Positions 7,436 to 48,137 of a stretch of DNA of 64,000 nt are shown in pieces. Source of the DNA: Mesorhizobium sp. WSM2240 (GTDB lineage Bacteria > Pseudomonadota > Alphaproteobacteria > Rhizobiales > Rhizobiaceae); contig NZ_CP159253.1 of the NCBI RefSeq assembly GCF_040438645.1, positions 1,364,001 to 1,428,000 on the forward strand. Reading direction: 5' to 3'. Made by a program: the position numbers and the translations under genes. Under the pieces are notes generated by a model, which was not told the origin of the DNA, did no database searches, and saw only the letters and a program-made list of their open reading frames with translations. Each line of letters starts with the position of its first letter. The stretch's first letter is position 1.

Positions 7436-7725
7436 GAATGCCGGTTGAGGTCATCCTGCCCAAGGTCGACATGGACATGGCAACCGGCCAGATCTCGCGC
7501 TGGTTCGTCGAAGAGGGCGCGGCGGTAAAAAAGGGCGACGTGCTCTTCGAAATCGAGACCGACAAGGCGGCCATGGAAATCGACGCGCCCGCCAGCGGCA
7601 CGATCCGCGACATCACCGGCAGGGAAGGCGTGGACATCCCGGTCGGCGAGGCGGTGGCCTGGATTTACGAGGCGGGAGAGGATGCGACCGCCGAAAGTAG
7701 TGGTGAGGCGGCGAAGAAAGAAGCT

Positions 7726-7891
7726 CCAATCTCACCCCTTGTTGTGGGGGAGATGTCGCCGAGGGCGACAGAGGGGGGCGCTGTCCCTCTGGCGTCTCAG
7801 GCCCAAACTGAGGGGCAAACCGGAAATGGGGTGCGTCCTACGTTGCCCCCCTCTGTCCTGCCGGACATCTCCCCCACAAGGGGGAGATTGG
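7726..7891. repeat. Palindromic repeat family A inside the E2 gene
   Basis: The 166-bp element begins CCAATCTCACCCCTTG and ends CAAGGGGGAGATTGG. The two ends are imperfect inverted repeats, each followed inward by GGGGGAGATGTC or its complement. The core CGACAGAGGGGGGCGCTGTCC and the inner arm TTGCCCCCCTCTGTCCTGCC are shared with the copy in glyS at 46428-46591. Its length (3n+1) shifts the reading frame between the lipoyl and binding domains of E2. Confidence 0.8.
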
Positions 7892-8029
7892 CAGCGGAAC
7901 TGTCCGCGCCACGCCGCTTGCCCGCCGCCTGGCGCGGGAAGCAGGGATCGACATTGCGGCGGTGATCGGCTCTGGCCCGCGTGGCCGTGTGATCAAGGCC
8001 GATGTGGAGAAGGCGGTCGCCAGCGCGCC

Positions 8030-8156
8030 TTCCTCCCCCCTTGCGGGGGAGGTGTCTGCGGAGCAGGCGGAGGGGGTGGTTCCGCTTCACAGTCGGCCCA
8101 GGTTTCACCACCCCCACCCGGCCCTTCGGGCCACCCTCCCTGCAAGGGGGAGAGAG
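8030..8156. repeat. Palindromic repeat family B inside the E2 gene
   Basis: The element is made of G/C-run arms: CCTCCCCCCTTGCGGGGGAGG on the left, CACCCCCACCCGGCCCTTCG in the middle and CCCTCCCTGCAAGGGGGAGAG on the right. It is related to the intergenic copy at 8911-9074. It separates the E1/E3-binding domain from the catalytic domain of E2 and changes the frame. Confidence 0.7.
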
Positions 8157-8910
8157 ATGCGCTGAAGCTCTTTGCCGAAGGCTCCTACGAACTCGTCCCG
8201 CACGACAATATGCGCAAGACCATCGCCCGCCGGCTGGTCGAGGCGAAGTCGACCATCCCGCATTTTTATCTGACGCTCGACTGCGAACTCGACGCGCTCC
8301 TGGCGCTGCGGTCGCAGCTGAACGCCGCCGCCCCGGTCAAGAAGACCGACAAGGGCGAGGTCCCGGCCTACAAGCTGTCGGTCAACGACCTGATCATCAA
8401 GGCGATGGCGCTGGCGCTGCGCGACGTGCCGACCGCCAACGTCTCGTGGACGGAGAGCGCCATGGTCCAGCACAGACATGCCGATGTCGGCGTCGCCGTC
8501 TCCATCCCCGGCGGCCTGATCACGCCGATCGTGCGCAAGGCCGACGAAAAGACGCTGTCGGTCATCTCCAACGAGATGAAGGACATGGCGGCAAGGGCCC
8601 GCAACAAAAAGCTGAAGCCGGAGGAATATCAGGGCGGCACCACGGCCGTCTCCAATCTCGGCATGTTCGGCATCAAGGATTTTGCCGCCGTCATCAACCC
8701 GCCGCACGCGACGATCCTGGCGGTCGGCGCGGGCGAGGAGCGGGCGGTGGTCAGGAACGGCGAGATCAAGATCGCGACGATGATGTCTGTGACGCTGTCG
8801 ACCGACCACCGCGCGGTCGACGGCGCGCTCGGGGCCGAACTTCTCAGCGCATTCAAGCGCTATATCGAGAACCCGATGGGAATGCTGTTGTGAGGACGCT
8901 CGACGCGAGA

Positions 8911-44167: not shown

Positions 44168-45091
44168 GTGACCTTGCCAGCCCACATGCACCCCAGCCGC
44201 TCGTTCCAGGGGCTGATCCTGACGCTCCACAATTATTGGGCGGATTATGGCTGCGTGGTGCTGCAACCCTACGATATGGAGGTCGGCGCGGGTACCTTCC
44301 ACCCGGCCACCACGCTGCGCGCGCTCGGCCCGAAGCCCTGGCGCGCCGCCTATGTGCAGCCGTCGCGCCGGCCGAAGGACGGCCGCTACGGCGAGAACCC
44401 GAACCGGCTGCAGCATTATTACCAATACCAGGTGATCCTGAAGCCGAACCCGCCGAACCTGCAGGAGCTCTATCTCGGCTCGCTGGCGGCTATCGGCATC
44501 GACCCGCTCACGCACGACATCCGCTTCGTCGAGGACGATTGGGAAAGCCCGACGCTCGGCGCCTGGGGGCTCGGATGGGAATGCTGGTGCGACGGCATGG
44601 AAGTGTCGCAGTTCACTTACTTCCAGCAGGTCTGCGGCATAGAATGCGCGCCTGTGGCCGGCGAGCTAACCTACGGGCTGGAGCGGCTGGCCATGTATGT
44701 GCAGGGCGTCGACAATGTTTATGACCTGAACTTCAACGGCCGCGAGGGCGCGGAAAAGGTCACCTATGGCGACGTTTTCCTGCAGGCCGAGCAGGAATAT
44801 TCGCGTCACAATTTCGAATATGCCGACACGGCGGTGCTGCTTCGGCATTTCGACGACGCCGAGGCCGAATGCCAGGCGCTGCTGAGGGCTGGGGCGGGCG
44901 GTGGTTTTCACCGCATGGTCTTTCCGGCCTACGACCAGTGCATTAAGGCCAGCCACGTCTTCAACCTGCTCGATGCGCGCGGCGTGATCTCGGTGACCGA
45001 ACGGCAGAGCTATATTCTGCGGGTCCGCAATCTCGCCAAGGCATGCGGCGAAGCGTTCTTGCAGACGGAGGCCGGCGGGCTGGCTGCCTGA
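44168..45091 (+). CDS. glyQ: Glycyl-tRNA synthetase alpha subunit
   Basis: GlyQ holds the catalytic site for glycine activation in the alpha2-beta2 enzyme. The family segments are complete: [59 protein letters not shown] and [16 protein letters not shown]. The GTG at 44168 gives the usual short leader before [11 protein letters not shown] at 44186 is an alternative. The length of about 307 is normal. glyS follows after a 450-bp gap holding a small opposite-strand ORF. Confidence 0.93.
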
Positions 45092-45286: not shown

Positions 45287-45545
45287 GGTCGTTGTCCGTG
45301 ACGTTCAGTGTCGATCGTTCTGTGTTCCGGGTCGGCGAAATGGTTCACACACAGGCCGCAGATTTCCCGGTCTGAGCGTTGGTCGCTTCAGCGCAGCATT
45401 CGGTTCATGGAAATCTGCCCGTAGGACGAATGGGCTCGCCGCGGTCCGACAGGCGGGCGAATGATTTTTGCGGATTGCCCGTGAAGGGTGACAGCGCGCG
45501 GCCGACTTGCTATGCCCGCGCGAACCTTTTCCTAGAGACCGAACT

Positions 45546-48137
45546 ATGCCCGATCTTTTGCTCGAACTACGATCCGAAGAGATACCTGCTCGCATGCAGC
45601 GCAAGGCGGCCGGCGACCTCAGGAAGATGGTGACCGACGGCCTGGTCGAGGCCGGGCTGACCTATGACGCCGCCCGCGACTACTGGACGCCGCGCCGGCT
45701 GACGCTCAACGTGCGCGGCCTGACAGCGCGGTCGAAGGATGTGCGCGAGGAGAAGAAGGGCCCGAGCACCAAGGCGCCGGAGCAGGCGATCGCCGGCTTC
45801 CTGCGCTCGGCGGGGCTCGACGACATCAGCCAGGCGCATGTGCATTCCGACCCGAAGAAGGGCGATTTCTATGTCGCCCATATCGTCAAGCCGGGCAGGG
45901 CGGCGGAGGAGATCATCGCCGAACTCATCCCAGGGATCATCCGGGACTTTCCGTGGCCGAAATCGATGCGCTGGGGCGCGGCATCGGCAAAGCCCGGCTC
46001 GCTGCGCTGGGTCCGGCCGCTGCAGTCGATCGTCTGCACCTTCGGCCCCGAGACCGAGGAGCCGGTGGTGGTCGACTTCGAGGTCGACGGCATCCGCGCC
46101 AGCAACGTTACCTACGGCCACCGCTTTCACGCGCCCGATGCGATCGTGGTGCGCCGTTTCGAGGATTATGCGGCCAAGCTCGAGGCGGCGAAGGTCGTGC
46201 TCGACGCCGACCGCCGCAAGGAGATCATCCTTGCCGATGCGAAGAACCTCGCCTTCGCCAATGGGCTGGAACTCATCGAGGATGACGGGCTGCTGGAGGA
46301 GGTGGCTGGGCTGGTCGAATGGCCCGTCGTGCTGATGGGCGAGTTCGAGCAGGATTTTCTCGACATTCCCGCCGAAGTGATCCGGCTGACGATCCGGGCG
46401 AACCAGAAGTGCTTTGTGACAACGCGCCCAATCTCCCCCCTTGTGGGAGAGATGTCGCCGAAGACGACAGAGGGGGGCGCTGTCCTGCCAATCTCTCAAT
46501 CAACCGAAAACCTTGAGGGCGGCGACGGTAAGCACTCTACGTTGCCCCCCTCTGTCCTGCCGGACATCTCCTCCTCAAGGGGGGAGATTAGCCAATCGTC
46601 ACTCTCCAACCGCTTCATCCTGACCGCCAATATCGAGGCCAGGGACGGTGGCAAGGAGATTGCTTACGGCAACGGCAAGGTGGTGCGGGCGAGGCTGTCG
46701 GACGCGCTGTATTTCTGGAAGACCGACCAGGCGGACCTGCCCGACCTCGACGAGTTGAAAGGGTCGGCGGAAAAATTCGGGCTCGATTTGAAGAAGCCGC
46801 TCGATCAGCGCATGGCGCGGCTCGACCATCTCGGCGTGACCTTCCACGCCAAGCTCGGCACGCAGGGAGAGCGGGTGGAGCGCATCGCGCGGCTGGCGGA
46901 GGAGATCGCGCCTATCGTCGGCGCCGATCCGAAGCTCGCGCGCCGCACGGCGGTGTTGGCCAAGGCCGATCTCCAGACCGAAGTGGTGGGCGAGTTCCCC
47001 GAACTGCAGGGCGCGATGGGCCGCAAATACGCGCTGCTGCAGGGTGAGCATACTTCGGTCGCCGCCGCGATCGAGGAGCACTACAAGCCGCAGGGGCCGT
47101 CCGACCGCGTGCCGACCGACCCCGTCTCGGTGGCCGTGGCGCTGGCCGACAAGCTCGACACGCTGGTCGGCTTCTGGGCGATCGACGAGAAGCCCACGGG
47201 CAGCAAGGACCCGTATGCGCTGAGAAGGGCGGCGCTGGGGGTGATCAGGATTGTGGTCGAGAATGGGGTGCGGTTAAGGCTTAATCCGATTAGCCTCCGC
47301 AGTTCGCTTGCCACTGCAATCTTCCTGCATGCACGCCGCTTTGCCGCGGCAGGTGAAAGACTAGCGCTAGCTGATGAATTGTCGCTTCTCGCAGACACCG
47401 ATTCTTTGAGGGAAATGGTCGGCAAGCGGATTGGAGAGATGTTCGATGGCAATGAAGAAGAAACAATCTGGACCGCCGCAAACACGTCGAGTTCCGACCT
47501 CCTCTCCTTCTTCCACGACCGCCTGAAGGTCTATCTCCGCGACCAGGGCGCGCGGCACGATCTGATCGACGCTGTGCTGGCGAGTGGCGCGCCAATCTCC
47601 CCCCTTGAGGGGGAGATGTCGGTGAAGCCGACAGAGGGGGCCGGAACATCGTCGAGGCACCCCCTCTGCCCTGCCGGGCATCTCCCCCTCAAGGGGGAGA
47701 TTGGCCAATCTTCAAACGACGACCTCCTGATGATCGTCCGACGCGTAGAGGCCCTGTCCGCCTTTCTCGATACCGAGGACGGAAAAAACCTGCTCGCCGG
47801 GACCAAGCGCGCGGCGAACATTCTGGCGGCCGAAGAGAAGAAGAAAACCCTCATCGCCGACTCCGTCGATCCCGCGCTTTTGCGTGAGGATGCGGAAAAA
47901 GCGCTGTTCGCCGCGGTGAATCAAGCCGAGAGCCAGGCCGGCCAAGCGATTCAGAATGAAGACTTTTCCGCCGCCATGCGCGCGCTTAGCGAGTTGCGTG
48001 AACCGGTTGATTCATTCTTTGAACGCGTTCTCGTGAATGATGAGGATGTGGTTGTCCGCGCCAACCGGCTGGCGCTGCTCGCCCGCATCCGCGCGGCTAC
48101 CGATCAGGTCGCGGATTTTTCCAAAATAGCCGGATAG
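45546..48137 (+). CDS. glyS: Glycyl-tRNA synthetase beta subunit with two in-frame repeat insertions
   Basis: GlyS completes the alpha2-beta2 enzyme. The 863-residue chain begins [20 protein letters not shown], and the family segments [51 protein letters not shown] and [20 protein letters not shown] are intact. Two palindromic repeats interrupt it without breaking the frame: residues about 295-349 (after ANQKCFVTT, before [13 protein letters not shown]) and about 683-720 (after [10 protein letters not shown], before DDLLMIVRR). Without them the chain would be about 770 residues, near the family length. A single continuous frame in an essential gene argues that the inserts are tolerated. Confidence 0.93.
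46428..46591. repeat. Palindromic repeat family A inserted in glyS (copy 1)
   Basis: This copy of about 164 bp starts CCAATCTCCCCCCTTGTGGG and ends CAAGGGGGGAGATTAG. It shares the arms, the ACAGAGGGGGGCGCTGTCC core and the inner TTGCCCCCCTCTGTCCTGCC with the copy in the E2 gene. It is read through in frame by glyS as ISPLVGEMS...[11 protein letters not shown]. Confidence 0.85.
47592..47704. repeat. Palindromic repeat family A inserted in glyS (copy 2, short form)
   Basis: This shorter copy of 113 bp has near-perfect terminal inverted repeats, CCAATCTCCCCCCTTGAGGG and CCCTCAAGGGGGAGATTGG. It is read by glyS as ISPLEGEMS...[13 protein letters not shown]. The left flank (GCGCG) resembles that of copy 1, which may hint at site preference. 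Confidence 0.85.

Follow-up and report, generated by a model that had tools for sequence, protein, structure and literature searches.

The glyS gene of Mesorhizobium sp. WSM2240 carries two palindromic elements within its reading frame, and these are very probably copies of short, non-autonomous repeats that are read through as tolerated loops of the enzyme, in the manner of the Rickettsia palindromic elements (RPEs), and that turn over at fixed, permissive sites. As a new case of protein-coding palindromic repeats the finding is real and well supported; what seems to be new is that repeats of several kinds have converged on three shared sites within a single essential gene. A sequence-only reading of the window (the whole stretch of 64,000 nucleotides analyzed here) had described two palindromic repeats of 164 and 113 bp, at about residues 295–349 and 683–720, read as protein in the RPE manner but in a rhizobium-like genome. 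Its sizes and ranges prove right to within a few bases, and the reading itself, as far as comparison of sequences can carry it, is supported.

The glyS palindromes and their genomic copies

Table 1. Location of the features discussed, in coordinates of the window
Feature	Position	Strand	Remarks
glyQ, glycyl-tRNA synthetase alpha subunit	44186..45088	+	no insert in window
glyS, glycyl-tRNA synthetase beta subunit, 863 aa	45546..48137	+	ATG to stop, single open frame
Site A palindromic element	46428..46592	+	GlyS residues 295–349; peptide ends ...SSSRGEIS
Site B, empty in window	46917..46922	+	between V458 and G459
Hypervariable GlyS segment	47271..47495	+	residues ~576–650; same place in L015–L094, L174
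Site C palindromic element	47592..47705	+	GlyS residues 683–720; peptide ends ...LPLKGEIG
E2 acyltransferase gene	7438..8893	+	lipoyl, E3-binding and catalytic parts in three different frames
E2 element 1, same family as glyS inserts	7725..7891	+	between lipoyl and E3-binding parts
E2 element 2, related	8028..8160	+	precedes catalytic part

The product of glyS (Table 1), a gene that could also begin with the TTG at 45507, is identified by Pfam (PF02092 and DALR_1) and by its relatives 7yse and 7eiv. Residues 4–291, 353–582 and 733–860 align with 7yse, from E. coli, on which site A maps to the interval from residue 289 to 297 and site C roughly to that from 552 to 563. With one open reading frame from end to end and homology on either side of both inserts, the earlier claim that the frame stays open and the surrounding GlyS intact holds.

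Both elements end in inverted repeats, a MITE criterion. An inverted-repeat search pairs 46430–46456 with 46563–46589 at site A (89% complementary) and, at site C, 47591–47612 with 47684–47705 (82%) and also 47600–47618 with 47679–47697 (100%). The arm motif, with up to three mismatches allowed, matches six times at three places in the window (both strands), all inside glyS, against a chance expectation of 0.00 (mean of 100 shuffles). As RNA, the stretches 46426–46592 and 47589–47707 fold with z-scores of −7.9 and −7.1, respectively, none of 200 shuffles being as stable in either case.

Copies of the palindrome are found elsewhere in the genome of the window (6.70 Mb in four contigs), where a 114-base query returned at least 14 matches with 40 of 50 first-look candidates scored; grouped, these come down to six places: glyS and the window's E2 acyltransferase gene have two each, and the remaining two are elsewhere. 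Arm matches number 71 in genome G001 and 21 in genome G002, and 12 of the 41 genomes searched, that of the window counted in, have one. Rfam gave no match in the window or in loci L146, L150 and L174. By eye, no GTAG/CGTC tag is seen at the visible ends CCAATCTCC/GGAGATTGG or CCCCCCTCTG/CAGAGGGGGG, and the true ends may differ. Since no target-site duplication is evident by eye between filled and empty sites, whose flanking codons differ too, we infer both the mobility of the elements and the mode by which their DNA moves.

Three sites of GlyS and their turnover

For comparison, the best 80 of 566 relatives were aligned with the window, giving 81 GlyS proteins of 716 to 959 residues. The frame is open to the C-terminal motif in 80 of them; that of L087, from a metagenome assembly, breaks downstream of site C, and with this locus and L049 (which contains N) dropped, 79 were counted. 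Insertions fall at three sites, A, B (after LAEELAPIV) and C (after DLIDAVLA). Judged by family expressions, site A is filled in 14 of these 79, B in 24 and C in 29, counts that take in short F1 remnants (two, two and three, respectively) and three non-palindromic pieces at B, and that leave out small expansions (those of L038, L070, L071 and L077, among others) and a plain site B insert in L072. Five proteins have all three sites filled, two of them partly by remnants. The alignment of related GlyS proteins suggested by the sequence-only reading thus finds segments that are not common to all relatives, at least one site being filled in 41/79 and none counted as filled in 38/79.

Family labels were assigned by peptide pattern: F1 (ISPLxGEM, the pattern of the window's inserts), F2 (GGRAEGAGGG), F3 (PHPEVRAER), F4 (PSSGPSGH), F5 (FSPLEGEM or GHPPLKGEG), F6 (TPALRS), the further labels F7 and F8, F1r for the F1 remnants, and P (FFDGKLLS). 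F1, F2 and F5 have similar-looking arms and may form a single group; the DNA of F3, F4 and F7 is plainly different. At site B, 15 loci with F1 inserts have a distinct peptide in common. At site C the flanks are mostly common to the insert-bearing proteins, being DAVLASG...NDDLL-like as against DAVITPQSDDLL-like. In L043, L060 and L079 the site B slot holds a non-palindromic piece (FFDGKLLSADDLNTEQ-like in L043), which we take to resemble phage-tail proteins.

The test for dispersed repeats covered F1, F2 and F3. The latter two are found in L085, the locus of Mesorhizobium alhagi CCNWXJ12-2 (genome G063), and are dispersed in its genome: F3, from site A, gave at least 46 matches (40 of 82 candidates scored) and F2, from site B, at least 22 (40 of 143 scored), many of them partial in both cases; G002 and G063 gave identical match places for F2 and F3. 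The inserts therefore match genomic repeats, which, on the genome search that the earlier reading had called for, argues against segments native to GlyS.

Turnover is seen between close relatives. Among the best 80 of 566, the nearest to the window is L085, at 94.3% core identity, and it carries F3, F2 and F7 at sites A, B and C where the window has F1, an empty site and F1; in G001, of the same genus as the window, F1-like inserts are present at all three. At or above 93% core identity there are 186 protein pairs, not independent of one another, of which 133 differ at one site or more; 25 of the 186 have different labels with both sites filled, several of these being F1 against an F1 remnant. 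Even at 97.5% identity, L043 and L065 differ in what fills site B, P in the former and F1 in the latter.

Parsimony on the tree gives 13, 17 and 19 changes of presence and 14, 19 and 23 changes of label at A, B and C. To take these as event counts was rejected, since the tree is weak at 36 of its 76 inner branches and recombination of glyS is possible. Counted by label, with P and F8 included, separate arrivals come to at least six (A), four (B) and five (C), or to four, two and four if F1, F2 and F5 are one group, the labels being peptide patterns rather than comparisons of DNA. That clearly unlike sequences occur at one and the same glyS site argues for hot spots, and the best reading is that A, B and C are such places, where copies come and go and other repeats take their place.

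Constraint, predicted structure and rival readings

The peptides of the inserts evolve under relaxed constraint. Their dN/dS is 0.59 at site B (all 15 labelled F1) and 0.54 at site C (13 of the 21 labelled F1, the other eight unused), as against 0.096 and 0.056, and 0.059 and 0.143, for the flanking stretches. Synonymous difference is reduced in the inserts, with a pS of 0.23 and 0.20 as against 0.37 to 0.55 in the flanks. The reason is visible in the alignment for site B, where the spacer varies while the arms hardly change across the 15 loci. A dN/dS below one together with a low pS points to some constraint at the level of DNA or peptide, or to recent spread; we favor weak constraint on the peptide combined with conservation or homogenization of the arm DNA. 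A consensus fold of the site B inserts found no support in covariation (covariation term +1.09; double change in 3 of 56 pairs).

At site C, the elements of the window and G001 have almost identical spacers and are probably one copy by descent. Relative to G001, three runs of G or C are each one base shorter in the window, which also lacks nine bases just before the element; the run losses keep the length modulo three while changing the peptide between the runs, which is partly out of register. Outside the elements, which were masked, six-base runs occur at 0.80, 0.60 and 1.05 per 10 kb in the window, G001 and G002 stretches, on small counts of 5, 10 and 6. As such runs are not rarer in the window, a systematic run-length error behind the losses is not indicated.

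An AlphaFold model of GlyS built on 56 sequences is weak overall (mean pLDDT 69, pTM 0.55). It places the site A insert between strands 289–293 and 353–361, with a short helix at 347–350, the site C insert between helices 671–679 and 727–741, and the empty site B between helices 440–458 and 462–472. Both inserts fall below a pLDDT of 50 (297–349 and 683–722), and on this model they are probably unstructured extra loops of ~55 and ~38 residues; native stretches such as 140–209 also score below 50, and low confidence in so weak a model is therefore no proof of disorder.

We propose that dispersed copies of a short, non-autonomous palindromic repeat would enter permissive loops of GlyS, site A being predicted as a turn between two beta strands and site C as the stretch that precedes the C-terminal anticodon-binding part. 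Because the element DNA is often without stops in several frames, insertions that are in frame would survive, and ribosomes would read them to give a GlyS with two extra loops. The added peptides would be made, would stay in the protein and would be neutral or nearly so, tolerated but not needed, with selection keeping the net length a multiple of three and free of stops. A hint in this direction comes from 36 copies with the half-elements in RL order, taken at any location in G000 (the genome of the window), G001 and G002: each of the 36 is open in one or more of the six frames, while only three have a length divisible by three, as if the element DNA were permissive and the glyS frame kept by selection. 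The arrangement of these copies is unlike that of the glyS copies, and they are not a strict control.

Whether the peptides are tolerated, cleaved or functional was a question raised by the sequence-only reading, and tolerance is the answer favored by the relaxed dN/dS, by replacement at the same site between proteins 93–97% identical, and by the low-confidence loops. Domestication, in which the inserted peptides or hairpins would tune GlyS activity, folding or mRNA translation, could account for the near-invariant arm DNA and low pS at site B, for a dN/dS below one and for the peptide that the F1 inserts share there; we consider it unlikely, given the large share of GlyS proteins with no site counted as filled, the close relatives that carry other families at the same site, and a site C peptide partly out of register between the window and G001. 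Hairpins are hopped by ribosomes in some mitochondria, and the very stable folds of both elements would suit inserts that are cut from the mRNA or bypassed in translation. A skipped insert, however, would be free of limits on its length, whereas a stop-free, multiple-of-three length is kept in 80 of 81 genes and the site C run losses preserve the frame, so that skipping is highly improbable. It is just as hard to credit that GlyS acquired the segments long ago as a native extension with a chance likeness to repeats, or that they are one ancient insertion since diverged: the mostly common flanks at site C do allow that one old allele prepared the site, but the window and L085 have unlike sequences at the same place (F1/F3 at A, F1/F7 at C), F1, F2 and F3 match dispersed repeats, and the arm motif is not expected by chance in the window; the genomic copies contradict the chance version.

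A separate and stranger observation is a hypervariable segment of GlyS (Table 1). Among 50 GlyS proteins with at least 40 residues there, it falls into 24 clusters without detectable similarity (blastp, E 1e-3); 65 with at least 15 residues give 38 clusters, a figure inflated because short segments hardly reach this E, and 15 proteins have shorter ones. Its borders are sharp, and in 40 of 49 its GC falls below that of the core. Even G001, which belongs to the genus of the window and has 86% DNA identity to it, shows no similarity here, and in 296 other genomes the window's version has two weak matches only (E 0.003 and 0.006), one of them in what is presumably a peptidase-like frame. It is conceivable, if rather unlikely, that GlyS in this group serves as a scaffold in which four or more slots take up unrelated DNA again and again, palindromic repeats in three of them and low-GC, orphan-like sequences in the other (~576–650). 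The fast exchange, most of all in the hypervariable slot, would then reflect diversifying selection, such as evasion of a factor that binds GlyRS, with the palindromic inserts as by-products or raw material.

Other host genes and comparison with known systems

Elements of this kind are not confined to glyS. The E2 gene of the window, which goes unmentioned in the sequence-only reading and whose E3-binding part was recognized by reading rather than by Pfam, has its frame changes near the ends of its two elements, while that of G001 is one frame; the window's copy is either a broken gene or an assembly error. Unless the frame changes are assembly errors, their coincidence with the elements means that read-through is not universal. 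A search for the insert peptide in 24 genomes, picked from glyS loci and hence over-representing glyS, found it in long open frames of glyS, E2, UvrD-type helicases and hydantoinase/oxoprolinase. All five of the Pfam-tested E2 acyltransferases with the peptide have lipoyl, E3-binding and catalytic domains; three UvrD-type helicases and two hydantoinase/oxoprolinase proteins are also Pfam-tested hosts. In-frame elements are seen at L199, L205, L207, L211, L213 and L238 in hydantoinase/oxoprolinase (at two different sites) and UvrD-type helicases, the helicase element of L213 and L238 lying directly before VN(I/L)CCVGDDDQSIYGWRG. The glyQ genes of L022, L027 and L092 have an in-frame palindromic insert at CKALLDAG. 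In G001, the UvrB frame of L149 has single arms in its C-terminal tail, L162 has an RL copy in a long CobN frame, and L170 has one between two domains of a molybdopterin oxidoreductase.

In 13 genomes, the exact LR order of half-elements has 13 matches at 12 places and the exact RL order 256 copies. Nine of the 12 LR places are in frame in conserved genes: five in glyS and one in a helicase (both by reading), and three in E2 (two Pfam-tested, L196 and L202, and one assigned by N-terminal sequence). A strict rule of LR within genes and RL between them was weakened by the RL copies in the L170 and L162 frames and the single arms in L149. A bias of LR toward conserved genes is a lead only, since one gene site often recurs across species among the LR places and exact patterns miss variants.

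Protein-coding palindromes are best known from the obligate intracellular Rickettsia and Wolbachia. A search of titles and abstract openings in the open-licence literature, among the matches listed, found none on palindromic inserts in rhizobial glyS. REPs with the GTAG/CGTC tag are alike in being short palindromes, often in inverted pairs, that occur inside UvrD/Rep helicase and tRNA synthetases, and in two Xanthomonas, different REPs are described at nearly one and the same position in recB (PMC3733652). They differ in unit length, 20–40 bp as against elements of 114–165 bp here, and in their tetranucleotide tag, which is not evident at our visible ends; the main text of that paper does not contain the word Mesorhizobium. 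RIME, A/B/C palindromes and Sm-repeats are likewise dispersed in rhizobia, but are described as intergenic in PMC2573895, and they are set apart here by description, not by sequence. ERIC/RU and Correia-type MITEs share short inverted repeats fused in frame to genes, although several of them, according to PMC2229807, have TA ends and target duplications, neither of which is evident here.

The closest likeness in description is to the RPEs (RPE-1 to RPE-7) and the Wolbachia palindromic elements, which are likewise in-frame palindromes with aminoacyl-tRNA synthetases among their hosts. Here, too, the palindrome has genomic copies and lies in frame in a conserved gene, some of whose orthologs are empty at the site. 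The RPEs lie inside conserved genes without breaking the frame, at 68–192 bp (Table 1 of PMC3767692) and in solvent-exposed places, with PheRS beta and IleRS among the hosts and different RPE groups in orthologs (PMC3767692), and an insert-bearing guanylate kinase is reported to be translated and active (PMC2229807). The glyS inserts belong to another lineage, rhizobia and their kin, and are likened to RPEs by description, not by sequence. Many rhizobia being culturable, they offer three sites in an essential enzyme of which nature provides filled, empty and refilled versions by the dozen. These make tolerance, cost and translation testable and chart the places at which an essential synthetase can take up ~40–55 extra residues. 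These variants bear, moreover, on whether RPE sites are hot spots or a single diverged insertion, a question that the authors of PMC3767692 leave open while leaning to one origin.
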